The position numbers and the translations under genes were made by a program. This document shows positions 317-16,239 of a stretch of 16,239 nt of DNA, in pieces; position 1 is the first letter of the stretch, and every line of letters starts with the position of its first letter. The DNA comes from Anaerolineaceae bacterium (GTDB taxonomy: Bacteria; Chloroflexota; Anaerolineae; Anaerolineales; Anaerolineaceae), in NCBI GenBank assembly GCA_003158355.1, contig PMIV01000166.1:1-16239 (forward strand), read 5' to 3'. Under the pieces are notes generated by a model. The model saw nothing but the letters and a program-made list of their open reading frames with translations, was not told the DNA's origin and did not search any database.

Positions 317-337
317 ATTAATGGGTGGAAAATTTTA

Positions 338-1024
338 TCAGGATAAATTCATCCGTTTCTGATAATCATCACAAATATCGTTCAGCGGGCAGCGCGGACA
401 TTCCGGGCTGCGTGCGTGGCAGATTTCCCTGCCCAGGCGGATAAGATTAAGATGGGCGGCGAAATAATCGGCCGGAGCAATGGCAGATTCGAGGAAATCG
501 TGGGTCTGTTCCAGCGAAAGGGTCAGCTCGCGCATACCCAACCGGCCGCTGACGCGGTAAATATGTGTGTCCACCGGGAAGGCGGGGCGTCCGAGGGAGA
601 ATTGCAGAACGATGGCCGCGGTTTTCCTGCCCACACCGTTGAAGTGCAGCAGCCAGCTGCGGGCTTCTTCGAGCGGCAGATCTTTGAGAAAATCGATATT
701 GAGTTCGCCGCGTTCAGCCGTGATCTGGCGCAGCACCTGCTGAATGCGCGGGCCTTTTTGGTTGCCCAGGCCGGCAATGCGGATGGCCGCAATGACCCCA
801 TCGGTTGGAGCGTCGCGGACATTCTCCCAGGTGGGGAATTGTGATTTGAGTTGGTTGAAGGCTAGATCGCGGTTGCGGTCGTTGGTGTTTTGCGAAAGAA
901 TGGTGGAAACCAATTCGTCCAGGGCAGGGAGGGGATTTCTCCAGGTGGGGATGCCGTAAAACTCCAATAAACGGTCCACCACCAACTGTGCTTTGAATTG
1001 GCGGGAGGAGGGTTCAGAGATCAT
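338..1024 (-). CDS. nth: Endonuclease III (DNA glycosylase/AP lyase)
   Basis: This is a base-excision-repair enzyme that removes oxidised pyrimidines and cleaves at abasic sites. The 228-residue product has the usual family length. The N-terminal helix carries ILSQNT (42-47). The helix-hairpin-helix is at about 126-136 (FNGVGRKTA), with Lys134 in the position of the catalytic lysine of E. coli Nth. Asp152 in VDTH matches the catalytic aspartate. The C-terminal 4Fe-4S loop is complete, with Cys202, Cys209, Cys212 and Cys218 spaced C-x6-C-x2-C-x5-C. The gene is last in a minus-strand run, starting 23 bases after the metallo-beta-lactamase-fold gene stops. No clear Shine-Dalgarno site precedes the ATG, so translation may be partly coupled. 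Nothing suggests loss of activity. Confidence 0.95.
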   Translation of the reverse strand: MISEPSSRQFKAQLVVDRLLEFYGIPTWRNPLPALDELVSTILSQNTNDRNRDLAFNQLKSQFPTWENVRDAPTDGVIAAIRIAGLGNQKGPRIQQVLRQITAERGELNIDFLKDLPLEEARSWLLHFNGVGRKTAAIVLQFSLGRPAFPVDTHIYRVSGRLGMRELTLSLEQTHDFLESAIAPADYFAAHLNLIRLGREICHARSPECPRCPLNDICDDYQKRMNLS

Positions 1025-1047
1025 AGCTATTGAAACCGGCAGACGGA

Positions 1048-1902: not shown

Positions 1903-1928
1903 TGGAACTCCTCAAGAGGTAGATGATT

Positions 1929-3491
1929 TTAGTGAGATAGGGGCAGAGAAAAAACAAACCGCGATCCACCTTGCGGTATATTTTCAACCCAGATTGTACC
2001 ACCATGAGCCTGCACTGCAAGCTTACAAAAAGCCAGACCTAATCCCAACCCCTTGACCGGATAATTTTGTTTAAGGCGGATGAATTTTTCGAATATTTCC
2101 TCTTTGAATTTATCCGGAATACCATTTCCCCGGTCATCCACCCAGAACACAATAAATCCCTGATCTTTTTTTGAGCCAATTTGGATTGTTGATTGGTCGG
2201 GAGAAAACTTGATGGCATTTTCTAATAAATTAATGATTACCCTGCGAATCATTTCAGCATCCACAGACACGGCGGGAACATCCGGGTCAATTTGTTGCCG
2301 AATCGTGATCTCTTTGTTTTTAGCCGCGGATTGAACGACCTCAATAGCTCCATTAACAAGCGTCTTGAAATCAGTCAATTGTTTATTCGTGATTTGTTGC
2401 CCGGATTCCAGACGATTGATATCAAGCAGCCCATCGATCATACGCTGCATGCGTTCGGTGGAGCGCTTGGCTACATTAAAAACGGATTTCAGTGATTCGG
2501 ATGGAGAATCCGGCAATAAAGTTCCCATGATATCCAGGCTGGAGATGATATTGGCCAAAGGGGAGCGGAGATCATGGTAAAGCATCGCTGAAAGATCATC
2601 GCGTAATTGCTCTATCTTTTTTTGTTCTTGGATATCCCGAAAGATCCATTGCAAATAAGTGCCGTCAGCGATGATAATTTGCGAGACATGAACTTCAACG
2701 GGTAAGATCTCGTGCCCATTTTTCTTAAGGGAAGATTCGTAAATGATCGAGCCCCTTTCGGGAATATTTTCGAAATTCACGCCGATCTTTTCTGCGGCAA
2801 GCGGATGAAGATCAGCGATAGTTAACTGCTGCAAGGCAGAGATCTCATCACCGGTCTCACGGCTAGCTTCTTGATTGGCCTCAAGAATTTTGCCGTGCAG
2901 GTCAGTGATCAGAATCGGATCAATATTTTCTTCGAAAAGATCATAATAACGGAGGTGCGCATTTTGTACGTCTTTATATAATTCTGCATTCCGGATTGCA
3001 ACGCCGGCTATTTCTGTGATGGCTTTTTGCAGGGCAACATGTTCTTCAGTGAAGAAATCGATCTGTGTATGTACAATGGTAAGCACGCCGACCAGTTTTT
3101 CATGAACCATTACTGGTATGCACAGCGCTGATTTTCCGGATGTGATGTTGCTGTTTGAATTTGGCCGAAACAGCCAGCGCTCGTCATTGGCGGTATTGTT
3201 TAGCAGAGCACTTTTTTTGTTGCGAATGACCCAGCCTGCCAACCCGGAAGTGATGACGTCTTGCATCTGTTCAATGGTAGTGGGGGTTAACTCACCGTTC
3301 GAAATAATGGCAGCATCGATCGGGTTGCCTTTTTCATCTAAAACGACCAGGCTGGCGCGTTCAGCTCCGATGTTAGATGTAGAAAGGCTTAATACTCTTT
3401 CCAACACCGTGTGCAAGTCTAAAGAAGCAGCTAACTCACGACTGATACTATATAGGATTTCCAGCGAAGATCGTTCTGACTGAATGCTCAT
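1929..3491 (-). CDS. Soluble GAF-PAS sensor histidine kinase
   Basis: This is a 520-residue sensor kinase with no transmembrane segment, so it probably reads a cytoplasmic signal. Domains in order: GAF at about 22-170, a PAS domain with its C-terminal segment at about 183-290 ending in 'WIFRDIQEQKKIE', the HisKA dimerisation helix with phospho-acceptor His306 (YHDLRSPL), and HATPase_c at about 375-520. The ATP-binding boxes are intact: N-box Asn421 and Asn425, G1 D453-R-G-N-G457, an F box around 467-470, and G2 GLGLGL at 481-486. No response regulator gene is in the window, so it is an orphan kinase here. The start is supported by AGGGGA a few bases before the ATG. It appears to be first in an operon with the MBL-fold gene and nth. 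The ligands of the GAF and PAS domains are unknown. Confidence 0.92.
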   Translation of the reverse strand: MSIQSERSSLEILYSISRELAASLDLHTVLERVLSLSTSNIGAERASLVVLDEKGNPIDAAIISNGELTPTTIEQMQDVITSGLAGWVIRNKKSALLNNTANDERWLFRPNSNSNITSGKSALCIPVMVHEKLVGVLTIVHTQIDFFTEEHVALQKAITEIAGVAIRNAELYKDVQNAHLRYYDLFEENIDPILITDLHGKILEANQEASRETGDEISALQQLTIADLHPLAAEKIGVNFENIPERGSIIYESSLKKNGHEILPVEVHVSQIIIADGTYLQWIFRDIQEQKKIEQLRDDLSAMLYHDLRSPLANIISSLDIMGTLLPDSPSESLKSVFNVAKRSTERMQRMIDGLLDINRLESGQQITNKQLTDFKTLVNGAIEVVQSAAKNKEITIRQQIDPDVPAVSVDAEMIRRVIINLLENAIKFSPDQSTIQIGSKKDQGFIVFWVDDRGNGIPDKFKEEIFEKFIRLKQNYPVKGLGLGLAFCKLAVQAHGGTIWVENIPQGGSRFVFSLPLSH

Positions 3492-3711
3492 TTTTCCCCT
3501 GTCAATATTATTTTATACCCAATTCCAAGTTGGCTATTTCTTTCCAGAGTAAGATCCATTCGTCTTCCCTGCTGTGTTGGTTTTAATGAAATATCAAAAA
3601 GGGAGAAATACTGGCAAAATAGATCACTCGTGGAAGTGACAAAAAAAAGCTATTCTATTTTTTAGGATGAACAGGCAAAACAATTTTCTTAAATGCAAAT
3701 TTGTTCCTTAA

Positions 3712-3740
3712 AGTATAGCATAAGGAAAATGAATTACCAA
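3712..3740 (-). promoter_or_regulatory. Probable sigma-70-type promoter for the histidine kinase operon
   Basis: On the minus strand a -35-like TTGGTA (3735-3740) is followed after 17 bases by TATACT (3712-3717). An extended -10 TGC lies directly before TATACT. Transcription would start near 3705 and give a leader of about 210 bases before the kinase ATG at 3491. The rest of the 3492-3790 gap is AT-rich, with poly-A/T runs and no convincing ORF. It holds only one weak 5-bp hairpin (TCACT/AGTGA near 3625-3640). A second TATAAAAT at 3510-3517 has no good -35. Confidence 0.5.
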
Positions 3741-3790
3741 ATAAACATCTTAATTTTACAAAAAATTTACTTGAGTTTATCGCTCAGGGA

Positions 3791-4516
3791 TCATGGAATC
3801 AGAGTTGACTTTGGAACTGTACATAAAATGGGTAAGGAAGGGCTGGAGGTTGCATTCAGCGGCAGCCCCAGGTAGGGTGAGGGATCGTAAGTGTTGGATA
3901 TCTGCAATTCGTTGGTGAAGCCGCCTTTACCGTCATCTTTGACGATGGAGAAGTGCAGGTGAACTCCCACCGGGCTGTCCGGGTCGCCAGAGTAATCTCC
4001 CATGAAACCCAAAAAAGTACCAGCTTTGACGAATTCTTCACTGGTTCCGGCGGGAAAATTGGCAGCGATCAGGCTGCTGCCGTCAGGGGTAGCCATGTGC
4101 GTATAATACGTCCAGATCTGGGTACCGGGGTGCAGCGGGTCGGAGGGGATACGGATGATGACTGAAGATTTCCATGCGGCGAGGCGGGTCAGATAACCGT
4201 CGTATGCGGCATAGACCGGGGTGCTGCCTGGCTCGGTGCCCCCGAATATATCGATGCCCTGATGGCGGTGCCCGATCTGAAAAGAGTCGTTCCATAAATA
4301 GCCGACCATCCCGGTGGTGGGGAAGGTAAAAGGCGCGCTGCCGCAGCGGGTGCCCGCCTGGATTTTCCAATCGGCGTGCGCTTCAGGGTTGCGGATAAAT
4401 TGCATCACATACAGGGTGCGGTTTTTGGAATGGGCCGGATCGACAAAGAGAAAGTACCCGGCGATCAAACCGGACACAATTACCAGCGAGGCTAAAAATC
4501 CCCAAAACTTTTTCAT
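3791..4516 (-). CDS. Membrane-anchored M23-family metallopeptidase (LytM/lysostaphin type)
   Basis: The 241-residue product has an N-terminal signal or anchor helix at about 5-24 and then a secreted M23 peptidase domain. Members of this family cut peptide cross-links in peptidoglycan with one zinc ion. All ligand motifs are intact: His85 and Asp89 in HQGID, His140 in YYTH, and His186/His188 in VHLHF, the last pair completing the HxH motif. Cys58 and Cys231 could form a disulfide. No LysM, SH3 or coiled-coil targeting region is present, so the protein is a bare catalytic domain on a tether. The gene starts 7 bases after miaB stops and lacks a visible Shine-Dalgarno site, so translational coupling is likely. 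The pairing with a tRNA-modification gene says little about function. Confidence 0.9.
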   Translation of the reverse strand: MKKFWGFLASLVIVSGLIAGYFLFVDPAHSKNRTLYVMQFIRNPEAHADWKIQAGTRCGSAPFTFPTTGMVGYLWNDSFQIGHRHQGIDIFGGTEPGSTPVYAAYDGYLTRLAAWKSSVIIRIPSDPLHPGTQIWTYYTHMATPDGSSLIAANFPAGTSEEFVKAGTFLGFMGDYSGDPDSPVGVHLHFSIVKDDGKGGFTNELQISNTYDPSPYLGLPLNATSSPSLPILCTVPKSTLIP

Positions 4517-4523
4517 AGCGCCG

Positions 4524-5840
4524 CTATTCTACAAGTTCGCCCAACATCGACCAGGGTCCGGTCCAGGTAATGTGAACCGGCAGCACTTTTCCGTGCAGAT
4601 CATCCGCGGATTCGACAAAAACCAGTTTGTTGGTAGGGGTGCGACCTTTCCAGCGTTTTTTCTCTTTTTCTTCAAAGAGGATGGGCACGGTTTGACTGAG
4701 ATAACGAGCGTGTATCTCACGCATGACCTCCCCTTGTAATCTTTCGATGGCGCGGAAGCGCTGCCATTTTTCTTCTTCAGAAACATCATCCGGTAGCATG
4801 CGTTCCGAGACAGTCCCTTTGCGGGGTGAATAGCGCGCCAAATGAACCATGTCCAGACGCAGTTCCGTTAGCAGGTCAAAGGTGTTCTGGAACTGGGCCG
4901 CGGTTTCACCGGGGAACCCCACAATGATATCGGTGGCGATGGAGACGTTCGGAATGCGCTCGCGAATCTTGTGAACCAGTTGGCGGTATTGATTCGCAGT
5001 GTAGCCGCGGCGCATATTGGCCAATACCTGGTCGTCGCCAGCCTGGTTCGGGATTTCAATATGCGGCATTACCTTGGGCAAGGTAGCCACTGCCTCAAGC
5101 AGTTCATCCGTCATCCAGTTGGGATGCGAGGTGAGGAAACGCAGCCGTTCCAACCCTTCGATCTGGCTCAGACGTTCGAGCAGTTTTGCCAGGGTCGGAT
5201 AGGAAGGTTCGTCTTTTCCGTAGCGGTCGACGATCTGGCCAAGCAGGGTAATTTCTTTGATGCCCTGAGCCACCATAGATTCGGCTTCGGGAATGATCTC
5301 TTCAGGGGGGCGGCTTTTTTCAATGCCGCGGCGGTAAGGGATGATGCAATAGGTGCAGGCGTGCGAACAACCGTAAACAATAGGGATGAAGCCGGAAACC
5401 TGTTTGCCCACCAATAGTCCGGGCAAGGTCAGATCGCTGTCCATCAGAGCATAGCGGCGTGCGGTCTCGGCAGCCTCAGCATCCTGAATATCACGTTGGA
5501 TCAGGAACTCCACCAGCGGACCGGGGTCAGAGGGCGGGGAAAAGACATCTACGTATGGAAAGCGTTTGTGCAGCGGGTTGTCGCCCTTGATGCCGACCAT
5601 GCAGCCCATCATATTGATCACCAGGTCCGGCCGCTGCCGTTTGGTTGGCAGCAGTGTGGTGAGGCGGCCGACGGCTTTTTCTTCCGCGGATTGGCGCACC
5701 ACGCAAGTGTTTAAGACAATAACATCTGCTTCTTCGATCACCGGGCTAAATGTGTAACCGAGGCGTTCCAGTGCAGACGCGACCCGGTCTGAATCTGCCT
5801 CGTTCATCTGGCAGCCTTCCGTCCAAATGTGATATTTCAT
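4524..5840 (-). CDS. miaB: tRNA-2-methylthio-N6-dimethylallyladenosine synthase (MiaB-type radical SAM methylthiotransferase)
   Basis: The enzyme adds a methylthio group to i6A at position 37 of tRNAs reading UNN codons. Numbering from the ATG at 5840, the N-terminal methylthiotransferase domain has cluster cysteines Cys10 (EGCQMN), Cys46 (NTCVV) and Cys80 (MMGCM). The radical-SAM core has Cys148, Cys152 and Cys155 in C-x3-C-x2-C (GCSHACTYC). A TRAM domain closes the protein (about 370-438, with 'TNKLVFVES'). Length is normal for the family. An in-frame GTG at 5846 would add two residues, but a consensus TATAAT ends one base upstream of it, so the ATG at 5840 is the better start. MtaB and RimO are the alternatives; the GCQMNEADSDR start and overall length fit MiaB best. 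Confidence 0.88.
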   Translation of the reverse strand: MKYHIWTEGCQMNEADSDRVASALERLGYTFSPVIEEADVIVLNTCVVRQSAEEKAVGRLTTLLPTKRQRPDLVINMMGCMVGIKGDNPLHKRFPYVDVFSPPSDPGPLVEFLIQRDIQDAEAAETARRYALMDSDLTLPGLLVGKQVSGFIPIVYGCSHACTYCIIPYRRGIEKSRPPEEIIPEAESMVAQGIKEITLLGQIVDRYGKDEPSYPTLAKLLERLSQIEGLERLRFLTSHPNWMTDELLEAVATLPKVMPHIEIPNQAGDDQVLANMRRGYTANQYRQLVHKIRERIPNVSIATDIIVGFPGETAAQFQNTFDLLTELRLDMVHLARYSPRKGTVSERMLPDDVSEEEKWQRFRAIERLQGEVMREIHARYLSQTVPILFEEKEKKRWKGRTPTNKLVFVESADDLHGKVLPVHITWTGPWSMLGELVE

Positions 5841-5847
5841 GGGCACG

Positions 5848-5876
5848 ATTATAACAAGAAACTGTTCGGATTTCAG
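5848..5876 (-). promoter_or_regulatory. Promoter of miaB, likely producing a leaderless mRNA
   Basis: On the minus strand CTGAAA (5871-5876) is followed after exactly 17 bases by a perfect TATAAT (5848-5853). Only 7 bases then separate the -10 box from the miaB ATG (5838-5840). No Shine-Dalgarno sequence fits in that space. Transcription would be expected to begin at or next to the A of the ATG. Confidence 0.6.
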
Positions 5877-6002
5877 CGGCCTTCAGTTATACTTGACCTC
5901 AATGGGGATTGCGAATCTTTGACGGTTGAATATCGTGAAAACCGATCTATTTTTACTTTTCACGTCTCAGAGTAAAATCAAGGGAAATAGAAAAGGACCT
6001 CA

Positions 6003-7346
6003 ATGAACAAAAAACTGACGCTCTCATTTCTGGCAATACTCTTATCAGCCTGTGTTTTAATCAGCGCTGTTTTAATCGTAGCAGTAGTACTCATCACTCG
6101 TTCGAAGCCTGTTCAGGTTGAAGCTGCTGCGGTTACGCCCACTGCGACCAGTATCGATGCCCAAATGGACCAGATCCAGCAAGAGGTGACCTCTTACCGC
6201 GGCCTCAAAATGGATAAACCCCTCAATCGCTCTTTGCTAACCACCGATAAACTTAAAGATCATGTCATCAATGAGTTCTTTGCCGACTATACCGCAGAAG
6301 ATGCTCAGCACGATGAAGAGGAACTGAATGCTTTTGGCCTCCTGCCCGCAAATTTCGATCTGCATGATTTTTACATCAAGTTGTATTCTGAGCAGATCGC
6401 CGGATATTACGATTCGAAGACCAAACAAATGTATGTGGTTTCAGACGAGGGTTTTAATGGTACAGAACGCATGACCTATGCACATGAATTTACCCATGTA
6501 CTGCAAGACCAGACCTATGATCTGGAAAATGGTCTCAAGATGAATGAAGAGTATTGCAAACACGAGACTGAATACTGCGCAGCCTTGAGCGCCCTGGTAG
6601 AAGGCGATGCCACCCTCTCGGAGCAATACTGGTATTATAAATACAGCACAGATCAGGATAAAAGTCAGATCAGCGATTTTCAAAAATCTTATACCAGCCC
6701 GGTTTACGATTCTGCCCCGGCATACATGAAAGAAGATTTCCTTTTCCCCTATACGCAAGGGTTGGCTTTTGTGAATACACTTTACGGCGAGAACAAGTGG
6801 ACGTCAATCGATGACGCTTTTAAAAATCCACCTGTTTCTACCGAGCAAATTCTGCATCCGGAGAAATATCCCGGTGAAGCACCGGTGAAAGTAACCGTAC
6901 CTGATCTGCTGACCACTCTGGGAAAAGGTTGGACGGAAGTTGACCGCAATGTGATGGGCGAATGGTATACCTACCTGATGTTGGCAGACGGTAGCGACGC
7001 TAAATTCCGCCTGGACGATCAGACGGCGAAGGATGCCTCCGCGGGTTGGGGCGGCGATACGTATGTTTATTATAGCAACGACACGACAAAACAATTCGTG
7101 CTGGTCTGGGATTCTGAGTGGGACACAAAGAAGGACAGTGATGAATTCTGGCAGGCCAGCCGCACTTACGGCAATGATCGTTGGGGAACAGCAAAAACCG
7201 ATACAACTGCTTCGATCTCGTGGCAAACGGACAAGGATGGTCTGGTGACTATGCAGCAAACTGACAAAGGCGTGCAGTGGTTAATGAGTCCCACAGCAAG
7301 CATGCAAAGTAAACTGGTGACCGCTTTATCCAGCGGTGGGAACTAA
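6003..7346 (+). CDS. Membrane-anchored putative zinc metallopeptidase (HExxH, gluzincin-like)
   Basis: The 447-residue product has an N-terminal hydrophobic anchor (about 7-31), a short Thr/Pro linker (TPTATS, 45-50) and an extracytoplasmic peptidase-like domain. The zinc motif is His161-Glu162-x-x-His165 in 'YAHEFTHVLQDQ'. Glu200 in 'LVEGDA', 35 residues later, is a good third ligand of the gluzincin type. 'GYYDSKTKQMYVV' just before the motif and 'STEQILHPEKY' further on match a family of uncharacterised bacterial and archaeal putative metallopeptidases with HELTHALQDQ-like motifs. Cys185 and Cys192 may form a disulfide. The C-terminal part (about 320-447) is a likely beta-rich domain of unknown role. 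A clear AAAAGGA site sits 5 bases before the ATG. The substrate is unknown. Confidence 0.82.
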   Translation: MNKKLTLSFLAILLSACVLISAVLIVAVVLITRSKPVQVEAAAVTPTATSIDAQMDQIQQEVTSYRGLKMDKPLNRSLLTTDKLKDHVINEFFADYTAEDAQHDEEELNAFGLLPANFDLHDFYIKLYSEQIAGYYDSKTKQMYVVSDEGFNGTERMTYAHEFTHVLQDQTYDLENGLKMNEEYCKHETEYCAALSALVEGDATLSEQYWYYKYSTDQDKSQISDFQKSYTSPVYDSAPAYMKEDFLFPYTQGLAFVNTLYGENKWTSIDDAFKNPPVSTEQILHPEKYPGEAPVKVTVPDLLTTLGKGWTEVDRNVMGEWYTYLMLADGSDAKFRLDDQTAKDASAGWGGDTYVYYSNDTTKQFVLVWDSEWDTKKDSDEFWQASRTYGNDRWGTAKTDTTASISWQTDKDGLVTMQQTDKGVQWLMSPTASMQSKLVTALSSGGN

Positions 7347-7349
7347 ACC

Positions 7350-8024
7350 ATGTCTTTTGATCCAACCCGGGTAAAAGCAGTTTGTTTCGATGTAGACGGA
7401 ACTCTGAGCGATACTGATGATATTTGGGTAGCCCAGATCGAACAACGCTTACATTTTTTAAAAATTGTCGTACCTGGGAATGATCTTCACACGCTGGCAC
7501 GCCGGATGGTGATGTCTTCCGAGACTCCCATGAATGCCGTTTATCATTGGCTGGATGTGTTGAGCCTGGATGATAATATTGCGCGGATCTACGAGCGCAT
7601 GATCCGGCGGCGCAAACAAAAAGCCCCCTCTTTTTCACTGATGGCTGGGGCAAATGAAACCCTGGCAGAGCTCTCGGCGCGGTTCCCGTTATCTGTGGTC
7701 AGCGCGCGTGACGAATATACCACGCAGGAGTTTTTAGATCAATTCTCTTTGCGAAGTTATTTTCATTTTACGGTGACTTCGCAAACCTGTGAGCACACCA
7801 AACCCTATCCGCAGCCTATCCTGTGGGTGGCTGAACGGATGCAGGTGCCGCCGGAAAACTGTATGATGGTAGGAGATACCACCGTGGATATTCTGGCAGG
7901 GAAAGCAGCCGGGGCACAGACCGTCGGGCTTTTATGCGGGTTTGGTACTGAGCGTGAATTGAGGCGAGCCGGAGCTGACCTGGTACTGAAAGATTTACCA
8001 GAGTTGATCAAAGTTTTCAAATAG
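7350..8024 (+). CDS. HAD-superfamily hydrolase (phosphoglycolate phosphatase-like)
   Basis: The 224-residue product has all four HAD motifs: motif I FDVDGTLSD with nucleophile Asp14 and acid/base Asp16, motif II Ser118 (VVSARD), motif III Lys151 (HTKPYPQP), and motif IV 'GDTTVD' with Asp176 and Asp180. The helical cap between motifs I and II (about 20-100) is the type seen in Gph/PpaX-like phosphatases. It should be a soluble Mg-dependent phosphomonoesterase; the substrate is not predictable from sequence. The ATG lies 3 bases after the stop of the metallopeptidase gene, so the two are co-transcribed and probably translationally coupled. A strong terminator follows 5 bases after the stop codon. 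No functional link between a secreted peptidase and a cytoplasmic phosphatase is obvious. Confidence 0.88.
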   Translation: MSFDPTRVKAVCFDVDGTLSDTDDIWVAQIEQRLHFLKIVVPGNDLHTLARRMVMSSETPMNAVYHWLDVLSLDDNIARIYERMIRRRKQKAPSFSLMAGANETLAELSARFPLSVVSARDEYTTQEFLDQFSLRSYFHFTVTSQTCEHTKPYPQPILWVAERMQVPPENCMMVGDTTVDILAGKAAGAQTVGLLCGFGTERELRRAGADLVLKDLPELIKVFK

Positions 8025-8029
8025 AGTTC

Positions 8030-8057
8030 AAAAAAGACGCCAACGGCGTCTTTTTTT
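8030..8057 (+). terminator. Rho-independent terminator after the HAD hydrolase gene
   Basis: A 12-bp perfect stem (8030-8041 pairs with 8045-8056, core GACGCC/GGCGTC) with a 3-base loop runs into seven T residues. It starts 5 bases after the stop codon and ends the 6003-8024 operon. The A run on the left arm gives the minus strand a T tract too, so it may also stop leftward transcription from the AT-rich island. Confidence 0.93.
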
Positions 8058-8110
8058 ATGGGTTCATTTTGTAAATAATCACCGGTCTGTAGAGCTTACA
8101 TCAACTCGCG

Positions 8111-8224
8111 TTATTTAACTTCGTAGATCAGGTAATTCTCATTAGTGGTTGCTGATGTAAATGACGCGACCAGATTCGTGGCTTGATAAAAAGCATCCAG
8201 ATCAGCCTGAGTCCAGGTAAAGAC
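8111..8224 (-). pseudogene. Remnant of the 3' end of a coding sequence (37 codons, no start)
   Basis: On the minus strand a 37-codon frame ends at TAA (8111-8113) and is blocked upstream by an in-frame TAG (8225-8227). It has no start codon. It reads like real protein: VFTWTQADLDAFYQA, then about 14 residues, then NENYLIYEVK. The base composition is closer to the normal genes than to the AT-rich gene beside it. I take it as the C-terminal stub of a gene whose front was deleted or replaced when the neighbouring island formed. The parent family is not recognised; an end such as 'YLIYEVK' is compatible with a membrane glycosyltransferase but proves nothing. A chance open frame of this length cannot be ruled out. 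Confidence 0.4.
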
Positions 8225-8267
8225 CTAATTGTAGGAATATATCTAAATCAATGGAATTCCAAAAAGA

Positions 8268-9770
8268 TTATATTTTTTCAAAGGGGATAATCTTTTTACT
8301 ATTTTCCTTCCAAAACTTGTTCTCCAACGCGTCAAGAAAGAACAAAATCGACATCCAAAAACCCATCCGGGATTGAAGCAAGAATTGTTCTGCATGCCTT
8401 GGAATTTCTATTGTATCAGAATGCCAAATTAACAGACTAAGTGGAATGACACTTAAAATTAGGAAAGCAACTACAAAATCCCCAACTTTAAATTTATATT
8501 TATTAATCACAATGGTTAAAATACATAAAATAATCCCGATTGGATAGATGATGTTGTTTTTTGGATAAATTATATTTGATAACCTACGTTCCCAATTTGT
8601 GGGTTCAGGAGGATTATGAAGATAAGATAAATTACTTGGACTGATCAGACTATTAATTTCAGAAAAAGGCTTCAGAACATACAATGGGTGAGAGATTAAG
8701 AACTTCGTGTAAATCGTTTTGGTTTTTTGATAAAATGCCATTTGCTGTGCTTTTGGTTGATTCAATAAATTGATATCCACCTTATTTAAATCAAGGCCAT
8801 TGTTTATAAAAAACTGAGTTAATTCTGGTTCAACCATTATTCTGTTATTCAAAACATGAGACATCGGTTCCCACCACCGATTTGAATTATTTACCTGGAT
8901 TAAGGAAAAAGCTGAACAGAGAATGACCATCAAGCTCAGGCTGAAATTTAATATATATTGCTTTTTCCCTTTCATTCGGAATAATACATATAGTAGATAT
9001 AAGAATCCACCGATCAAAACGATCGAAGCATTCGCATCCCTGATGAAAATGTATAAAACTATGCTTATCCAAAGAAGGATAGATAAAGTGATGTTATATA
9101 TGCAGCGTTTGTTTTTTTCAATTGATTCTTTCAAGAGTATCAACGCAACAATGAAAATAAAAAGGCTGTTCGATATAGATTCTGTGAGTAACATTCTTTC
9201 CCACAGACCAATATCAATTCCCAGGCCTAAAAGTAAAATAATGGCTGTTGAGAAGAACTTTAAAAACAGATGTTTGGTTTGAAGACTTACGGTAAAAGCA
9301 AAAAAGATCCAGACGAGAAAGTTCAGAATAAATTGAAATAGTGTAATTCTCCACATTGAATTAAATTGCTCAAAATTACCTATATTGATTCCCAACAATT
9401 TATAGATCAACGGCAAAACAAATGGCCGCTGACCATCCCAAAAATTGGGGCTGGTTATTGGAATTTCGGTCACCTCAACATATGATTTCGTGTCATGCCA
9501 GGGGCGTAAATCGTCGAGATTGTGTAAATATTGAAATTTGATCAAACCAAAACAAATAAGTAAACAGAATGCGGCGCACCAAATAATCAAATTTGGATGT
9601 TTTTTACTCAGGTAACCGAGCAGCATAAGTAATGATCCTAAAATCAATAACTTTAATTGCATTCCCCCCAACATAAATGTTTTTCCGCGGAGAAAATCGC
9701 TAAAAATTGAGAAAAAAATGATAAATCCGCCTGGTATATAAAAACATAATTCTTTTATTCGTTTTTTCAA
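8268..9770 (-). CDS. Multi-pass membrane protein, possibly a GT-C-type glycosyltransferase
   Basis: The 500-residue product is strongly hydrophobic, with about ten to twelve predicted helices (among them 38-55, 60-77, 131-150, 157-178, 219-238, 416-432 and 441-459). A large soluble loop lies at about 290-410. Between the third and fourth helices sits 'RPWHDTKSYVE' with Asp93, followed by 'FWDGQRPFVLPLIYKLLG'. An acidic residue in the first large loop followed by an 'RP..PL.Y' segment is typical of membrane glycosyltransferases that use lipid-linked sugars. Near the C-terminus is 'EIPRHAEQFLLQSRMG'. The likely start is TTG (9768-9770) with GGGGA 7 bases upstream; the next in-frame ATG would remove the first helix. 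The gene is visibly AT-richer than its neighbours, uses mainly A/T-ending codons and stands alone, which suggests horizontal transfer. Confidence 0.65.
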   Translation of the reverse strand: MKKRIKELCFYIPGGFIIFFSIFSDFLRGKTFMLGGMQLKLLILGSLLMLLGYLSKKHPNLIIWCAAFCLLICFGLIKFQYLHNLDDLRPWHDTKSYVEVTEIPITSPNFWDGQRPFVLPLIYKLLGINIGNFEQFNSMWRITLFQFILNFLVWIFFAFTVSLQTKHLFLKFFSTAIILLLGLGIDIGLWERMLLTESISNSLFIFIVALILLKESIEKNKRCIYNITLSILLWISIVLYIFIRDANASIVLIGGFLYLLYVLFRMKGKKQYILNFSLSLMVILCSAFSLIQVNNSNRWWEPMSHVLNNRIMVEPELTQFFINNGLDLNKVDINLLNQPKAQQMAFYQKTKTIYTKFLISHPLYVLKPFSEINSLISPSNLSYLHNPPEPTNWERRLSNIIYPKNNIIYPIGIILCILTIVINKYKFKVGDFVVAFLILSVIPLSLLIWHSDTIEIPRHAEQFLLQSRMGFWMSILFFLDALENKFWKENSKKIIPFEKI

Positions 9771-9804
9771 TTGATTATCCCCAAGATGATCGTTGAGCTA
9801 TGAT

Positions 9805-9942
9805 TTATTTGAATTCCACGTAAAAAATATGGTCTTCACGTTCTCTCAACTGTAGAAGAATTTTTGAAGTCCCACTTTCTTAAAAATTAGGTATAACTTG
9901 TTTGGCATTGTTCACTTCCAAGAGGACGGTTCTATTCAAAGT
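9805..9942 (-). pseudogene. Possible decayed coding fragment with an internal stop
   Basis: On the minus strand one frame reads TLNRTVLLEVNNAKQVIPNF, then a TAA stop (9880-9882), then 23 codons including SKILLQLREREDHIFYVEFK, then the final TAA (9805-9807). Both halves have a plausible beta-strand pattern, and the second ends in a way that resembles the remnant at 8111. There is no start codon, and an in-frame TAA also closes the upstream end. This may be debris of a gene that once lay between the PBP gene and the AT-rich membrane protein gene. In AT-rich DNA the reading is weak evidence. The rest of 9771-9985 holds only an imperfect inverted repeat. Confidence 0.22.
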
Positions 9943-9974
9943 TTATTTTAAAAATGCCAAATAATCTAGTTATA
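9892..9974. repeat. Imperfect inverted repeat downstream of the PBP gene
   Basis: TATAACTTG-TTTGGCATT (9892-9909) is repeated on the other strand at 9953-9974 as TATAACTAG-ATTA-TTTGGCATT. There is a 9-base perfect inner arm, a 7-base perfect outer arm and a 4-base insertion between them. The arms are 43 bases apart. It could be an operator pair, a weak terminator-like fold after the PBP gene, or chance in AT-rich sequence. Confidence 0.35.
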
Positions 9975-9985
9975 AAACTTTTTCC

Positions 9986-12862
9986 CTAAGGTAAAACCGT
10001 AAAAGTAATGTTCTCCGAACTGGACGTGTTGCCGGCGCTGTCGACGGCTTTAATTTGCAGAGTATGTTTACCGGCTGCTGGAGACCAAAGGTAAGTATAG
10101 GGAGGTTCAGTACGTTCCCCGATCTTCTTACCATCCATCCACCATTCCACTTTGGCGACGCTCACCTGGTCAGTCACCTCTGCGCTGAGGGTGAGGACGT
10201 GATTGACGGGTTGGATCTCGCTGCCGCTGGCGGGATAGGTAATATGAATGGACGGCGGAACATTATCCACGGTCACCTGGATCACTGCCGTCTGGATCTG
10301 ATTGTTCTGGTCCACCACATTCAAGCGGATCGCATACAGGCCGTCTAACCCCTTGGTATCCCAAACTGCCAGCTTGCCATCCTTCACCGGGGCAGTACCA
10401 GTCGCATCCACTTGCTGCCAACTTTGCGGATTGATGCCTTGCCCTACCTGAACATTATAGGAAGCAAAAGCTGATACGGCCGCTGTTCCGCTAATGGTCA
10501 CTTTTCCGGCAACTGGGGCAAACAACCCCGGGCTGCTGATCTGAACCAGTGGATTGGTTTGAGTTGTGGAAATCGCATCGTAACCGAGCGGAGGAATCTT
10601 CAGACCGGCGCCGGTAGCCCATTCACGCATATTGGCCGGCACATTTACAAACACCTCTTGATCGATCAATTCAGCCGGGGTAAAAACGGTTGCCAGCAAC
10701 CCGGTCTCGCGGTTCACATTTAATTTTTCATAAAGGGTATCTGCTTGCGTCGGTTCATTACCATACAAGAAAACATCATTGGTAACACTGGGGCAAATCG
10801 CGGTTGGCAGCATTCCCGAAGGGGAGCAAACCTGAATGCTGCTTACATCCGCAGGCTGTGCCCAGGTACTATCAGCCATGTTTTGAATGCTGTATTGGAT
10901 GAGAGCGTGCCAGAGACCAGACGACATGCGTATATCCAGCGGGGAGACTGCTGCAACTGTTTTGTTTTCTCCCATCCAGGTAAGCACAAGTCGATCTGGA
11001 GTGTAGCCAACCGTCCAAACCTGATCTTTTGCCGCCACCTGACCGGTTTTTACGGCAGCACTGCGGCCAATTTCAAGAACATTGGGGTGTCCCAAGCTGG
11101 TTCTGCGGGTAACTTCGTCGCTTAATACATTGTTGATGAGATAGGTAAGCGAACGGCTGAGCATCGCTTGCGAATCGGGAACAGTATGATCGACCAAAAT
11201 TTGACCAGAGGCGGAGCGGACTTTTAAGACCACCACAGGATCAAGGCTGCCGGTTTTAGTATTCAGAGTTCCAATCCTATTACCCTCGGCTGCCAGGGTG
11301 GCGTAAGCCTGGGCAACTTCAAGCAAGGAGCTTTTCCCACCCCCAAAAAGCAGATCAGCAGAAGCGGATTCTTGTTTCGGGGAAGAAAGACCCGTGGCAT
11401 CAGCCAATACCCAAACTGTCTGCGCATCCATCTGTTCAAGCAAGGCCGCAAAAGGCGCCGTGTAATCATTCGCCAGCGCTGAGCGGACGTTTACCGGGCC
11501 GTGGAAGGAATTATCGGGGTTGTGTTGGCCGGAAACATCTGTGGGAAGGGTAGCCGGAACATCCCACTCCAGGGTGGCCGGTGAAATACCGCGGGCGAAA
11601 GCTGCCAGGGCAATAAAAGGCGTGGCCAATGACCCGATCTGATAATCTGTATTGATGATCGTGCTGGTAAGCGTGGTGGGAGCGGAATAGGCCAGGATCT
11701 GACCGGTGTGCGGGTCCAAGATGAGACCGGCAGCGCTTAAATCGGAGCTCCCAGCCTGAGCAAAGCTTTGGGTAGGGAGAAGATCGCCAGCCGGGCAGGT
11801 GCTCCCTTTAGCGGCGTCACCGGAACCAGCGGAAGATTCTATCTGAAGCAGTTGCACATGAGCCGCGCAGGTAAATTGAGTTTGCAGATCAAGATCGAGG
11901 GTAGTGATCACGTTCAGACCACCGCGTTCCACTCGGTCTTTGCCTAACTCAACTTCCAACTGGTCTTTGACCAGGTCGAGGAATTCAGCGTTGGCGTTGC
12001 TGTTTTGAGCAGGTACGGAATAGAGATGAATTTTTTCTGCTGCCGCTGAGGAATATTCAGCCGCGGTGATTACACTTGAACCGGCCAGGGATTTAAGCAG
12101 TTTTTGTTGGTTTTCCAGGGCGGCGCTGAGCGCATCGATCGGATTAAGCGCTGGCGATTGCATCAGGCTGACGATCAAAGCGGATTCAGCCAGGTCAAGG
12201 TCAGAAGCAGATTTATGCAAATAAAGCTGAGCCGCACTGTCTGCCCCATAGCTTAAATGACCGAGATACACGCTGTTAAGGTACCATTCCAGCGTCTGGG
12301 TTCGCCCATATTGGCGAATAATCTGGCTTGCCAGCAGCTTCATGCGGATGGCAGTGCGATCAGAATCGGTTTCGTTGTTCAGTAAAAGGTTTTTTACCAG
12401 TCTTTCTGCAATCGTACGGGGCTGCTGCTGCAGATCTGATAAAGAGCTGGCACCGTTGTTTTTCCAGAAGGTTGGGTCAAGGTCAGCGACAGTGAGGCGC
12501 AGCAACTGCAAGCTGAAGTGATCGGCATCATCCGGGTTGACACTTAAAAAGTGGCGCGTAACGCCGTCATTTTCAATACTGGCTAAAGTTTGAACTCCGC
12601 TGCGGTCCAACAAGCGGGTGGGCTGTAACAATTCTCCGTTTTGGCGGTTCAGCAGGGTTGGCAACTGCTCAATCGAGGGTAAGTCGTATGTGAGTGAAAC
12701 GTAATAAAAACCACCGAAAAGAAGCGAACCGCAAAAAAGCAGCGCAAACAAAGCCAATGCCAGACGCGCCAGGTTTGAAAAAAAAGTATGCACCGACTGG
12801 CTGTTCTTTTGCCGGAAGGATTTCCTTTTTTTTACAAGTAGGTAAACATTTTGGCGCTTCAT
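9986..12862 (-). CDS. Class A penicillin-binding protein homologue, apparently catalytically dead in both domains, with C-terminal Ig-like domains
   Basis: The 958-residue product has a basic N-terminus, one membrane anchor (about 31-54), a GT51-like region (about 85-280), a transpeptidase-like region (about 375-660), a linker with 'VCSPSGMLPTAICP' typical of class A PBPs, and two Ig-like domains (about 772-868 and 869-958). The fold signatures are clear: EWYLNSVYLG (192-201), a SAAQLYLHKSA segment, and ILDPHTGQILAY. The catalytic residues are not. The EDxxF glutamate is Leu128, its histidine is Asn135, and the second GT51 glutamate (RKxxE) is Met174. SxxK is S411-L-A-T414, SxN is D466-Y-T468, and only KTG (605-607) survives. 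The frame is long and undamaged, so this is a maintained protein. Its start is 8 bases after the TPR gene stops. A structural or sensing role at the cell wall is my inference. Confidence 0.85.
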   Translation of the reverse strand: MKRQNVYLLVKKRKSFRQKNSQSVHTFFSNLARLALALFALLFCGSLLFGGFYYVSLTYDLPSIEQLPTLLNRQNGELLQPTRLLDRSGVQTLASIENDGVTRHFLSVNPDDADHFSLQLLRLTVADLDPTFWKNNGASSLSDLQQQPRTIAERLVKNLLLNNETDSDRTAIRMKLLASQIIRQYGRTQTLEWYLNSVYLGHLSYGADSAAQLYLHKSASDLDLAESALIVSLMQSPALNPIDALSAALENQQKLLKSLAGSSVITAAEYSSAAAEKIHLYSVPAQNSNANAEFLDLVKDQLEVELGKDRVERGGLNVITTLDLDLQTQFTCAAHVQLLQIESSAGSGDAAKGSTCPAGDLLPTQSFAQAGSSDLSAAGLILDPHTGQILAYSAPTTLTSTIINTDYQIGSLATPFIALAAFARGISPATLEWDVPATLPTDVSGQHNPDNSFHGPVNVRSALANDYTAPFAALLEQMDAQTVWVLADATGLSSPKQESASADLLFGGGKSSLLEVAQAYATLAAEGNRIGTLNTKTGSLDPVVVLKVRSASGQILVDHTVPDSQAMLSRSLTYLINNVLSDEVTRRTSLGHPNVLEIGRSAAVKTGQVAAKDQVWTVGYTPDRLVLTWMGENKTVAAVSPLDIRMSSGLWHALIQYSIQNMADSTWAQPADVSSIQVCSPSGMLPTAICPSVTNDVFLYGNEPTQADTLYEKLNVNRETGLLATVFTPAELIDQEVFVNVPANMREWATGAGLKIPPLGYDAISTTQTNPLVQISSPGLFAPVAGKVTISGTAAVSAFASYNVQVGQGINPQSWQQVDATGTAPVKDGKLAVWDTKGLDGLYAIRLNVVDQNNQIQTAVIQVTVDNVPPSIHITYPASGSEIQPVNHVLTLSAEVTDQVSVAKVEWWMDGKKIGERTEPPYTYLWSPAAGKHTLQIKAVDSAGNTSSSENITFTVLP

Positions 12863-12870
12863 TGTCGTTT

Positions 12871-14673
12871 TTACTTTTTGGTTGAGGTACTGCTTGGTTT
12901 GGGCGTGGCACTCTTCTTCGGGGTTGGAGTGGGTGTCGGCGTTTTACTCGGAACCGGGGTTTTTGTAAGTGTAGGTGAGGGTGTCGCGGTCACTAGTTCC
13001 GTCAATTGTTTCTCCGCATCCACTTTTAAATCTTGGGGAAGGGCACCGCCAGCATATTCCTGAGCAGCAGTAAAATCTCGAATGGCCGCGCTGGCTTCAT
13101 CCAAACCACGCAATGATGCGGCTTGCCAGTAGAGCAGAACCGCTTTTTGTGAATCTGTTTTAGCCAGTTTTTTACTGTAATCGAACTGATTGTAGGCGCT
13201 GCCGGCCAGGGTTTCCGCCAGTAACACTCTGCCCAGGCCTACATTGGCGTCAAAATTGTTATAGTCTACATGCAATACTGCATTGAAATCTGAACGGGCG
13301 GAGTCAGTTTGATTTTCGCTCAGATAGATATCAGCCCGAAGCAGGTATGCTTCAATGAATTTATTGTCCTGCTGCAGGCATTCATTGACCAGCGCAAGCG
13401 CTTTTTCAGAATCGCCGCCTTCGAAGTATGCCCGGGCCAATAAAATCTTCGAGCTCATATTTGTGGGTGAATAATTCAAAAAAGTGAGCAAAGGTTCAAT
13501 GGAAGTGTTGTAATCGCCGTTCAACTGTAAAATCTTCGCCCAGGTTAAATATACCGGGAGCAGAGAACGGTCGTATTGATTGGCTTTTTTGATCGATACC
13601 AGCGCCTGGTCGCCATCCCCTTTGGCCAGATATGCTTCGGCGCGGTCCAATTCCACCTGCGCGTTGTTCGGCATGCTGGCATCCAACCCGGATAGATAAC
13701 CTAAAGCTGCGTCCGGGGAATTTTGGGCGAGCATGAGATTCGCCAGTTCCAGATATGCCACGCTCAAATTCGGGTCCAGGCTAACCGCCTTTTGCAGGGC
13801 GGTAAGGGCTTGGTCCGTCTTTACAGGTTGGCCCTCAAGATAGACCTGCGCTTCTCCCAGATAAGGCGGTGCAAAATTGACATCGATTTTAATGGCGTTC
13901 TGGTAAGCAGAAAGGGCATTGTCAAAGGCCCCCTGGAAGCGGTAAACATCGCCCAAATGATAGTAGATATCCGCAGCATTTGGTTCACTCGCCAGCACCT
14001 GTTTGAAATAATCAGCGGCCTTTACCCAATCGCCTTTTTCGTAAGCGCGCATTCCGGCGGAATAGGCTTCAAAACGATTATGCGGAGTGGCTACATAGAC
14101 GGGGGTGGGTGTAAAAGTGGCGTCTAGGGCGATGGAAAACAGTGCTGGCCCGGTAGAGGTGATAGTGGGAGTTAAAGTTTCGGTCGCCGTGGGTAGAGGA
14201 GTGACCGTCCAATGTTTGACGGGTGATATACTCGCTGATTGGCTGGGTTTTAATGCGAGATAAATTCCGAAACCGAATAAAGCGATGATGGCAAGGCCGA
14301 GAACTGAATATAAAGCTATTCTTGACCGTAAGGCACGTTGTCCAGCAGGGTTTTCATCTTCCAATTCCAGTTGAGTCTTCCAGGGGATAAAGGGCGGATC
14401 TGATGGTGCTTTTGGAGCTAATTCAGGGGCTTTTTCTCCGAGCATGCGCAGCCCCTGGGCAGCTTCTTCATTTTCCGGGTCGATCACCAGTACTTCTCGC
14501 AAACAATAAATACGTTCTTTTGTTGTTTTTACTGCTGCGCTCATCCACAACCAGTAATCAACGTTTTTTCGGTCGATTTTTAGCAACTGAGAGAAGAGTT
14601 CGCGCGCTTTCGTCAGGTCGTCAGACTGAAAAGATGAAACTGCTTGAGTATACAGGTCTTGCTCTGGAATCAT
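12871..14673 (-). CDS. Membrane-spanning TPR protein with TPR units on both sides of the membrane
   Basis: The 600-residue product has four parts. Residues 1-78 form a cytoplasmic TPR-like helical unit ('VDYWLWMSAAVKTTKERIYCLREVLVIDPENEEA'-type, kept short here). A single transmembrane helix lies at about 119-141. A Thr/Pro-rich linker (about 155-195, with PTATETLTPT) follows. A long extracytoplasmic array of TPR units runs from about 201 to 540, with the regular 'A..Y..LG..Y...G....A...Y..A...D' pattern. The last 40 residues are a low-complexity Thr/Pro/Lys tail that could bind cell-wall polymers. TPR arrays act as protein-binding scaffolds. The gene is directly upstream of the PBP homologue (8-base gap), so the two products probably work together at the envelope. 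There is no Shine-Dalgarno site; the start is set by a promoter 6 bases upstream. Confidence 0.85.
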   Translation of the reverse strand: MIPEQDLYTQAVSSFQSDDLTKARELFSQLLKIDRKNVDYWLWMSAAVKTTKERIYCLREVLVIDPENEEAAQGLRMLGEKAPELAPKAPSDPPFIPWKTQLELEDENPAGQRALRSRIALYSVLGLAIIALFGFGIYLALKPSQSASISPVKHWTVTPLPTATETLTPTITSTGPALFSIALDATFTPTPVYVATPHNRFEAYSAGMRAYEKGDWVKAADYFKQVLASEPNAADIYYHLGDVYRFQGAFDNALSAYQNAIKIDVNFAPPYLGEAQVYLEGQPVKTDQALTALQKAVSLDPNLSVAYLELANLMLAQNSPDAALGYLSGLDASMPNNAQVELDRAEAYLAKGDGDQALVSIKKANQYDRSLLPVYLTWAKILQLNGDYNTSIEPLLTFLNYSPTNMSSKILLARAYFEGGDSEKALALVNECLQQDNKFIEAYLLRADIYLSENQTDSARSDFNAVLHVDYNNFDANVGLGRVLLAETLAGSAYNQFDYSKKLAKTDSQKAVLLYWQAASLRGLDEASAAIRDFTAAQEYAGGALPQDLKVDAEKQLTELVTATPSPTLTKTPVPSKTPTPTPTPKKSATPKPSSTSTKK

Positions 14674-14679
14674 AGATTG

Positions 14680-14708
14680 AGTGTAGCATAGGCTAGAAAG
14701 CTGGGCAA
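14680..14708 (-). promoter_or_regulatory. Promoter of the TPR-PBP operon, likely leaderless
   Basis: On the minus strand TTGCCC (14703-14708) is followed after 17 bases by TACACT (14680-14685). An extended -10 TGC lies directly before TACACT. The ATG of the TPR gene (14671-14673) begins only 6 bases after the -10 box, leaving no room for a Shine-Dalgarno site. The promoter overlaps the upstream half of the divergent LysM gene promoter. Confidence 0.55.
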
Positions 14709-14719
14709 GATTATTCAGG

Positions 14720-14725
14720 TATAAT
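14720..14725 (+). promoter_or_regulatory. -10 element of the LysM lipoprotein gene, likely leaderless
   Basis: A perfect TATAAT (14720-14725) is followed by 7 bases and then the ATG at 14733. This is the same geometry as at miaB. No good -35 is visible 16-19 bases upstream; that region overlaps the divergent TPR promoter. The earlier in-frame ATG at 14724 overlaps the -10 box itself, so it would not be transcribed. Confidence 0.5.
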
Positions 14726-14732
14726 GCAGTTT

Positions 14733-15701
14733 ATGACAATAAACAAAATATTCTGGATTTGGCTGCCTGCCTGCGCATGTGTTTTACTGAGCGGATGCCA
14801 GTCAGTTAATCAAACACAGACTGCTGCAGTCTTTGGTAGCGAGCAATTGACCCCCTATTTTACCGCTACCCTCACACCGACTGCAACCGCCACTCCGATC
14901 AATGCGCCCACGGCCACGCTGCAGCCGACCTTGACCCCCACAGCTCAGATTTACATTGCCAAGGGGAATGAGACGATGTGGACGATCGCGGCCAAAGCCG
15001 GGCTCACTCTTAAGGAAATTCTAGCAGCTAACCCTGATGTAAACCCATATTCACTGACTGCCGGTACGAAAATCGTGATCCCTTCTTCGTCCGCAGGCAG
15101 CTCAACGCCATCGGCTGCCACTTCCACCGCAGTTCCAGTGATCATTCACGACCCCAAATGTACTCCTTCATTAACAGGCGGGTTGTATTGTTTCGCCAAC
15201 GTGGAAAATAACCAGACCTTTACCGTACAAAACCTGAGCGCTCAGTTCATATTGACTGATCTGACCGGCGGAGAAACCAAAACCGAGCCTGCCCTTTTAC
15301 CGCTCGATCATTTGACTGCCGGCAGCACCTTACCCCTGTTCGCGTATTTCCCGCCGACGGTGAGCAGTTCCACCGGGGTACAGATCCAGTTACTTACTGC
15401 TTATCCCGATAGTTCCACAGAATCCAAATATTTGGCGCTCACTCTGGCGAATACCAAAACAGATATTTCCACGGACGGTCTTTCTGCTGCTGTAAGCGGC
15501 TCGGTGAGCGCTGCCTCTGCTGCTTCACGTTTTTGGCTGGTGGCAGTGGCTTATGATGCCGAGGAAAACGTTGTGGCAGTGCGGCAGTTCGATAAAAAAG
15601 CCACCCTGGCTGCCGGAGCGAGCGCGGATTATTCACTTTATGATTACAGCATTGGCGGGAAAATTACTCACGTGGCTGTGTTTGGCGAAGCGACCCCCTG
15701 A
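14733..15701 (+). CDS. LysM-domain lipoprotein
   Basis: The product of 322 residues begins with a lipoprotein signal peptide (MTINKIFWIWLPACACV) and the lipobox LLSGC, with Cys22 as the acylation site. A Thr/Pro-rich linker (about 45-70, TPTATATP) leads to one LysM peptidoglycan-binding domain at about 73-117 ('IAKGNETMWTIAAKAGLT..EILAANPDVNPYSLTAGTKIVIP'). The remaining 200 residues form a beta-rich region ending in an 'FWLVAVAYDAEENVVAVRQF' segment, like the FxLYD-type domains of exported proteins. It should sit on the outer face of the cytoplasmic membrane and hold the wall through LysM. The start at 14733 is chosen over the ATG at 14724 because of the -10 box position; it also gives a cleaner signal peptide. 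The gene is divergent from the TPR-PBP operon. Confidence 0.85.
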   Translation: MTINKIFWIWLPACACVLLSGCQSVNQTQTAAVFGSEQLTPYFTATLTPTATATPINAPTATLQPTLTPTAQIYIAKGNETMWTIAAKAGLTLKEILAANPDVNPYSLTAGTKIVIPSSSAGSSTPSAATSTAVPVIIHDPKCTPSLTGGLYCFANVENNQTFTVQNLSAQFILTDLTGGETKTEPALLPLDHLTAGSTLPLFAYFPPTVSSSTGVQIQLLTAYPDSSTESKYLALTLANTKTDISTDGLSAAVSGSVSAASAASRFWLVAVAYDAEENVVAVRQFDKKATLAAGASADYSLYDYSIGGKITHVAVFGEATP

Positions 15702-15702
15702 T

Positions 15703-16239
15703 CTATTGCACTCCCCAGATCAAATAATTGCCGGTGGCGCAAACCGGTTGCGATGTGCTGTCGGAAATGCAAACCTGATACACCAATATTTGTGAATTAC
15801 TGAGATTACTCATCGCCGGGATGATCAATGATGCCCTTCCGTCAAGGCCTGTTTCCGGGAAAGCCGCGCTATACTGCGATTTATCCGGTAAAGTGATGGT
15901 AAGCTGCGCCTTTATTTTGGTAACCGGCTGTTGATTGTCTTTACGCAGCACCTGGATATCTATTTTTTGGGCATCGCTGGCTGAAATTTGCTTGGATTGC
16001 ACGCTGGCCAGCAGTGTTACCGTACTGGGAGAGATTTCCAATGGCTGTGGCACACTGGCATCCGAGCTATCAGCCAGACCGATATACTGGCTGCCCAGGG
16101 GAGCCATCTGTACTTTTTGATCATCGGGCAGATCGGAATGGTAATCCAGGCAGTAATTCTCAAAACACTGACGGTAGGTGGTTGTGTCATATTGAAACAC
16201 TTCCATAATGGGGTTTCCCGAAAATTCCAGACCGCCGTG
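15703..16239 (-). CDS. Secreted Ig-like beta-sandwich protein, C-terminal part (5' truncated by window edge)
   Basis: The frame stays open to the last base of the window, so the Met at 16206 is not shown to be the start. Read from the edge it begins 'HGGLEFSGNPIMEVFQYD'. A short region with two cysteines four residues apart follows ('QCFENYCLDY'). Next is a segment with the strand pattern of a bacterial Ig-like or invasin-type domain ('PSTVTLLASVQSKQISASD', then 'IKAQLTITLPDKSQYSAAF', then 'GLDGRASLIIPA'). Two further cysteines near the end (VYQVCIS, QPVCATG) suggest an extracytoplasmic protein. I do not recognise the N-terminal part. The stop codon is 1 base from the LysM gene stop, convergently, with no terminator hairpin between them. 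Confidence 0.65.
   Translation of the reverse strand, partial: HGGLEFSGNPIMEVFQYDTTTYRQCFENYCLDYHSDLPDDQKVQMAPLGSQYIGLADSSDASVPQPLEISPSTVTLLASVQSKQISASDAQKIDIQVLRKDNQQPVTKIKAQLTITLPDKSQYSAAFPETGLDGRASLIIPAMSNLSNSQILVYQVCISDSTSQPVCATGNYLIWGVQ

Follow-up and report, generated by a model that had tools for sequence, protein, structure and literature searches.

A predicted class A penicillin-binding protein pseudoenzyme conserved in Anaerolineae

Introduction

Why would a bacterium keep a full-length class A penicillin-binding protein (PBP) from which the catalytic residues of both enzymatic domains have disappeared? The question is raised by a gene on contig PMIV01000166.1 of an Anaerolineaceae bacterium (GCA_003158355.1), of which positions 1 to 16,239 (16,239 nt; the window hereafter) were analysed. 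The gene (9986..12862, minus strand, as are all of its parts given below) encodes a protein of 958 residues. Non-catalytic roles of class A PBPs are usually probed with artificial dead mutants; here a full-length class A PBP has been rendered dead by evolution itself and retained across much of an order, in most cases alongside a normal copy.

Results

The window protein has a class A PBP fold and lacks the catalytic motifs

Pfam placed a transglycosylase (PF00912) and a transpeptidase domain (PF00905) above cut-off in the protein, and its AF2 model (pLDDT 89.8) is a high-confidence class A PBP fold. The best 50 Foldseek matches of the model are all PBPs, and a PDB structural match spans most of both catalytic domains. 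A GT51-fold domain (about residues 118–275; 12038..12511), of which the Pfam Transgly match covers 150–258 only, precedes a transpeptidase-fold domain (about residues 376–665; 10868..11737), and a single N-terminal membrane helix is found in the model, its hydrophobic stretch judged by eye. This is the class A architecture. The cut-offs of two NCBIfam models were missed, PBP_1a_fam (TIGR02074) at 236.5 against 508.75 bits and PBP_1c (TIGR02073) at 148.2 against 494.2 bits.

The motif losses were located by alignment to relatives and to PDB chains. Neither GT51 catalytic glutamate is present in the window protein: the degenerate motif 1 reads LDPTFWKNNG (residues 128–137; 12452..12481), with Leu128 replacing the first glutamate, and Met174 (12341..12343) stands at the RKxxE position of the second. 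Motif 2 has degenerated to RTIAERLVKN (149–158; 12389..12418), whose TIAER signature is kept in the close family. In the transpeptidase domain, SxxK has become SLAT (411–414; 11621..11632), with Thr414 for the lysine, and DYT (466–468; 11459..11467; Asp466, Tyr and Thr468) takes the place of SxN, so that KTG alone remains (605–607; 11042..11050). Gone with these residues are the ones required for polymerising glycan and for acylating the serine. Judged by its sequence and predicted fold, the protein is a class A PBP by descent that fails as an enzyme by motif. The model and the alignment thus bear out the original prediction of a full-length class A PBP devoid of catalytic residues in both domains.

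The substitutions are shared by relatives

A database search returned 556 proteins at E ≤ 0.001. Among the 120 matches listed of these 556, none keeps the SxxK lysine and none keeps either GT glutamate, while methionine stands at the second glutamate in 116, aspartate at the SxN serine in 115, the KTG lysine is present in 118 and serine or threonine at the nucleophile in all 120. The predicted substitutions are therefore common to many homologues. Similarly, the SxxK lysine is absent from all 80 named loci, where the first GT glutamate is found in 2 and the second in 38; many of these loci share genomes with those bearing G labels. The lysine is also absent from all 26 order loci, one of which (L194) keeps both GT glutamates. 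Members of the clade with canonical motifs, which would have spoken for a local fault in this one record, were not found at the SxxK lysine in any of these three sets. Sequence error and decay confined to a single genome can be ruled out, as the substitutions are common to homologues at 44–78% identity in other assemblies.

We also assembled 265 rows of mixed origin, not de-duplicated. In the 184 that lack both GT glutamates, the motif 2 glutamine has become glutamate in 179, the second catalytic glutamate methionine in 166 and the SxN serine aspartate in 168. The 228 rows with a residue other than lysine in SxxK were reduced to 210 by removing duplicates identical over residues 150–600; this set lacks the SxxK lysine by construction, the independent counts being those of the 120 listed proteins and the 80 named loci. 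The first GT glutamate is kept in 3 of the 210 rows, the second in 41 and both in none.

Motif 2 glutamate accompanies methionine at the second catalytic position in 150/210 rows, and motif 2 glutamine accompanies glutamate there in 39/210. Such a pattern would also fit a protein that is still a glycosyltransferase with displaced catalytic residues, Glu153 of TIAER for example taking over, and both glutamates are indeed held by L194 and L202–L204. We consider this very improbable, because window-type proteins lack the first glutamate, the motif 3 lysine is kept in 1% of 114 degenerate rows and the family has lost the motif 2 lysine too (1% kept), although the window protein itself has Lys157. 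Binding of the lipid II diphosphate is attributed to the lysines of motifs 2 and 3 of GT51 enzymes. Furthermore, the stretch between motifs 1 and 2 is shortened by 11–12 residues (spacing of 21 in 173/210 degenerate rows versus 32–33 in 33/35 canonical rows), and the Glu/Met pattern tracks one clade and may reflect a single event.

The transpeptidase pocket looks rebuilt

Across the 210 rows Asp466 is kept in 195, the KTG lysine in 197 and its glycine in 201, whereas the KTG threonine is not conserved. Since Ser/Thr411, Asp466, Lys605 and Gly607 occur together in 187 rows, the pocket looks rebuilt, not abandoned. It may have been repurposed, with Ser/Thr411, Asp466 and Lys605 binding a stem peptide or D-Ala ligand without acylation, or catalysing another reaction, so that the protein would sense uncrosslinked wall. 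The joint retention of the four residues favours this reading when set against a fused pseudo-transpeptidase of the same genomes, described below, in which the serine is kept in 2/29 rows and the KTG lysine in 1/28. From PBP structures, a retained KTG lysine could still bind a carboxylate, and the kept lysine may do so here. We nevertheless regard repurposing as unlikely: a simple Asp–Lys salt bridge accounts for the same conservation, residue 411 is serine in 164 rows versus threonine in 42, a swap unusual in a nucleophile, KTG varies at its middle position, and Lys605 is lost in 13/210 rows. Asp466 is missing in 8 of those 13 as well, compared with 7 of the 197 rows that have Lys605, a difference confounded by kinship.

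The gene is under purifying selection

We estimated dN/dS by the Nei-Gojobori method, with dS partly saturated. Six pairs of the degenerate PBP among four genomes of the window's genus gave 0.087–0.121 (dS 0.54–1.04), three pairs of the normal class A PBP from three of these genomes gave 0.050–0.074, and 16 further pairs of named loci gave 0.079–0.300. From these values, purifying selection acts on the degenerate PBP, about twofold more weakly than on the normal enzyme. An enzyme fold, lost catalytic residues and conservation under selection, the marks of a pseudoenzyme, are all found together here.

The twofold difference, together with long branches, absence from several genera, a stop within the G150 match and another within the G321 match, would also suit a gene degenerating toward loss under relaxed selection. 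Whole-gene dN/dS is well below 1, however, the new residues are conserved at about 90% or more, and long intact frames run across an order, with the 556 database homologues beside them; we therefore hold out little prospect for this explanation.

Constraint is retained after the transpeptidase domain and relaxed before it

Columns at ≥ 90% identity were compared between 114 degenerate and 30 canonical proteins, after manual removal of seven degenerate loci at class level and of several loci that were partial or duplicates. The GT domain has 24 such columns in the degenerate set versus 58 in the canonical one, and the transpeptidase domain 41 versus 102. A module directly after the transpeptidase domain (residues 666–770; 10553..10867; VCxPSGxxPTxxCP ... 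NRETGxLATVFTP) has 34 versus 28, and a first Ig-like beta domain (about 771–866; 10265..10552), with no Pfam match above cut-off, 18 versus 14. The second Ig-like domain (867–958; 9989..10264; Big_7/BiPBP_C) has 0 versus 12. Constraint on the catalytic domains is thus relaxed, and the 666–770 module and first Ig-like domain are as constrained as in active orthologues. This pattern fits the role of wall sensor, scaffold or regulator originally predicted for the protein from its sequence. The prediction also described it as extended by two Ig-like domains; the tail is present, but "extended" is misleading, as canonical orthologues have the same tail.

The same figures can be read as those of a structural wall or surface protein, in which the PBP part is no more than a stalk for anchoring and the work, adhesion or wall binding, falls to the C-terminal beta domains, since residues 666–866 show as much conservation as in active relatives and the catalytic domains show less. 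This seems to us decidedly unlikely, given that the GT and transpeptidase domains retain their 24 and 41 columns, that matches end near profile position 867 in part of the lineage, where the second Ig-like domain is missing, and that active orthologues have that same tail.

Most relatives also carry a normal class A PBP

A degenerate copy is present in 53 of the 81 genomes of the window's family, and 50 of these 53 have a normal class A PBP as well. These counts took 30–107 bits as degenerate and ≥ 190 bits as canonical GT51; matches were sorted by score and counted by hand, with motifs read in 13 of the 53. The three genomes with a degenerate copy and no canonical one (G000, G215 and G248) are drafts, 77–90% complete. 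A second, normal class A PBP thus exists in nearly all of these genomes and was not found in the window's own assembly (84% complete), nor in G012 of the same genus. Transpeptidase matches of the own genome comprise two class B PBPs with intact GSVFK, the window protein and one FtsW/RodA fusion. Four genera of the family, each represented by four genomes (g10, g129, g130 and g147), have a single GT51 protein, a canonical one, so the degenerate PBP is dispensable there. Its presence could not be related to that of the elongasome marker MreB, since the MreB family matches 81/81 genomes, and also two archaeal controls, with other actin-like proteins counted.

At order level, 90 of 121 genomes have a profile match at 1e-120, counting canonical and degenerate proteins alike, and 86 of these 90 have just one. 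One match per genome fits replacement over duplication, without proving it. In the phylum, 16/151 genomes match at 1e-150, 14 of them from the same class. The window-like state is found in the records of Anaerolinea thermolimosa IMO-1, Levilinea saccharolytica KIBI-1, Ornatilinea apprima P3M-1, Longilinea arvoryzae KOME-1, Bellilinea caldifistulae GOMI-1 and Leptolinea tardivitalis YMTK-2, six named strains that we take to be cultured isolates; through them the protein can be tested in culture. An Anaerolineae-type gene also occurs in records titled Chloroflexus sp. and Arcobacter sp. (L105 and L107), whose MAG labels are probably wrong.

Taken together, the conserved substitutions, the predicted intact fold, the signs of purifying selection and the normal PBP in 50/53 family genomes with a degenerate copy strongly support the claim of a PBP pseudoenzyme over simple decay. 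Its retention in many related bacteria, mostly beside a normal PBP, makes the altered protein a probable non-enzymatic helper in building the wall and not the product of a broken gene.

Transpeptidase function was probably lost first

Full-motif orthologues were found in five families of the same order (L061–L065). The transpeptidase motifs and the second GT glutamate are kept in 22 of the 24 best-scoring class loci, a biased sample by that choice, with the same C-terminal layout; in L169 and L175 the position of the first GT glutamate lies outside the available sequence. In a 67-row tree, the degenerate order clade is nested inside the canonical class A PBP family, and 30 of the 33 clade rows group with support 100. 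All degenerate rows can fall on one side of a branch (one change), in a tree that is poorly resolved and in which two long branches (L055 and L056) meet. When the order members were constrained to group, the resulting tree could not be rejected (33 rows; lnL lower by 27.5; p-AU 0.176). Degeneration may have had one origin or several. By sequence, then, the degenerate PBP is a lineage of Anaerolineae (Chloroflexota) within a family of ordinary class A PBPs.

Ten further class-level loci were picked by hand. L202–L204, from another Anaerolineae family, have both GT glutamates and have lost SxxK, SxN and the KTG lysine; L205 and L206 keep the first glutamate alone, and L208 and L209 neither. With their different losses, these loci from other Anaerolineae families are possibly independent conversions. 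As L194 and L202–L204 still hold both GT glutamates, the simplest order of events is probably that transpeptidase function was lost first and GT function later.

The neighbourhood is conserved mainly within the family

Directly upstream of the PBP gene, across a gap of 8 bp, lies a gene for a 600-residue TPR membrane protein (12871..14673, minus strand), followed by a divergent gene for a LysM protein (14724..15701, plus strand) with a lipobox-like LLSGC, read by eye. TPRs are also carried by CpoB. Of the 69 named loci whose upstream sequence exceeds 2.2 kb, 29 have a relative of the TPR protein there, 24 one of the LysM protein and 19 both. The second GT glutamate is lost in 29/29 TPR loci and kept in 32/40 others, an association that probably reflects a single event in one clade. 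LysM is kept, with no TPR match there, in four genomes of the window's genus (L036, L038, L040 and L042), and outside the window's family the product of the upstream gene resembles RecN or FolP or is a different one (names given by eye). A universal operon with TPR and LysM genes is rejected; the linkage is mainly within the family.

Two further genes of the window were noted. One (15703–16206, minus strand) encodes a 167-residue protein with no Pfam match and is conserved beside the LysM gene in much of the family. The other (8268–9770, minus strand) encodes a 500-residue membrane protein between the PBP and HAD genes; it had no match at the other loci compared and is perhaps an insertion in this genome.

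A second pseudo-transpeptidase is fused to FtsW/RodA

The FtsW/RodA (SEDS) fusion of the own genome lies on contig C200 (L214:1240-3612, minus strand) and joins the polymerase to a class B PBP-like transpeptidase domain without catalytic motifs. Matches at 1e-60 occur in 37/41 genomes, at least six of the weakest covering the polymerase part only. In the 30 loci read, the own genome included (relatives L216–L245), the SxxK lysine is present in 0/29 rows and, as given above, its serine in two and the KTG lysine in one of the 28 rows with a letter there. In this fusion the polymerase may carry its own non-catalytic activator.

Discussion

The explanation we favour, with moderate confidence, is a PBP pseudoenzyme derived from a normal Anaerolineae class A PBP and acting as a scaffold or allosteric regulator of active synthases. 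The protein would be anchored in the cytoplasmic membrane, its GT and transpeptidase domains would form a non-catalytic body and its C-terminal module (about 666–866) would dock on partners. The regulated target would most likely be the normal class A PBP, which nearly all genomes with the pseudo-PBP also have; the TPR protein next to it in the window's family would link the pseudo-PBP to the cytoplasm. In the pocket, Asp466 probably pairs with Lys605; with the SxxK lysine gone, such a pair would settle the charges and leave a pocket that is stable, not reactive. Against this explanation stand the restriction of the TPR and LysM neighbours mainly to one family, GT death that is not lineage-wide (second glutamate in 38/80 named loci, both in L194), the four genera that dispense with the gene and the two genomes, the window's own included, in which no normal class A PBP was found.

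More tentatively, a wall synthase could have been converted into a specialised sensor with no catalytic function. Transpeptidase activity would have gone first, the pocket becoming a conserved Ser/Thr-Asp-Lys site able to read uncrosslinked peptides but not to react with them, and the GT domain would have died later in the clade with the TPR neighbour. If this and the reading of the SEDS fusion were true, Anaerolineae would regulate wall growth largely through pseudo-synthases. For the pseudo-PBP, intermediates that have lost the transpeptidase motifs only, and ordinary orthologues as outgroups, exist for comparison. The names "membrane peptidoglycan carboxypeptidase" and "penicillin-binding protein" in the source records overstate the synthases of these bacteria.

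We found no class A PBP pseudoenzyme described in the open-licence PMC literature on pseudo or inactive PBPs, on those of Anaerolineae, on CpoB, on GT51 residues or on SEDS-PBP pairs. A precedent for non-catalytic PBP action is C. difficile PBP3, a class B PBP that acts in a complex with a class A PBP and still promotes septum synthesis when its serine is mutated (PMC12154710). Like the pseudo-PBP it works without transpeptidase activity; unlike it, PBP3 has an intact active site, the mutant being artificial, and no GT domain (PMC12154710). Regulation of PBP1B by a non-PBP protein is seen in CpoB, which is Tol-associated, and LpoA has TPR-like repeats (PMC4458516, PMC4632607). LpoA/LpoB and CpoB share with the pseudo-PBP the proposed function of class A PBP regulation, and a TPR protein adjoins the pseudo-PBP here. 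Their folds are unrelated to it, and no synthase-derived regulator is among those described in the passages considered (PMC4632607, PMC4458516).

Compared with the class A PBPs PBP1a, PBP1b and PBP2, the window protein has the same fold, the same domain order, the EWYLNS scaffold motif and KTG, but it lacks both GT glutamates, the SxxK lysine and SxN and has a shorter loop between motifs 1 and 2. Also close are the canonical Anaerolineae orthologues (about 1000–1130 residues), which share its lineage, its C-terminal module and its Ig-like tail and, unlike it, keep SxxK, SxN, KTG and the second GT glutamate.
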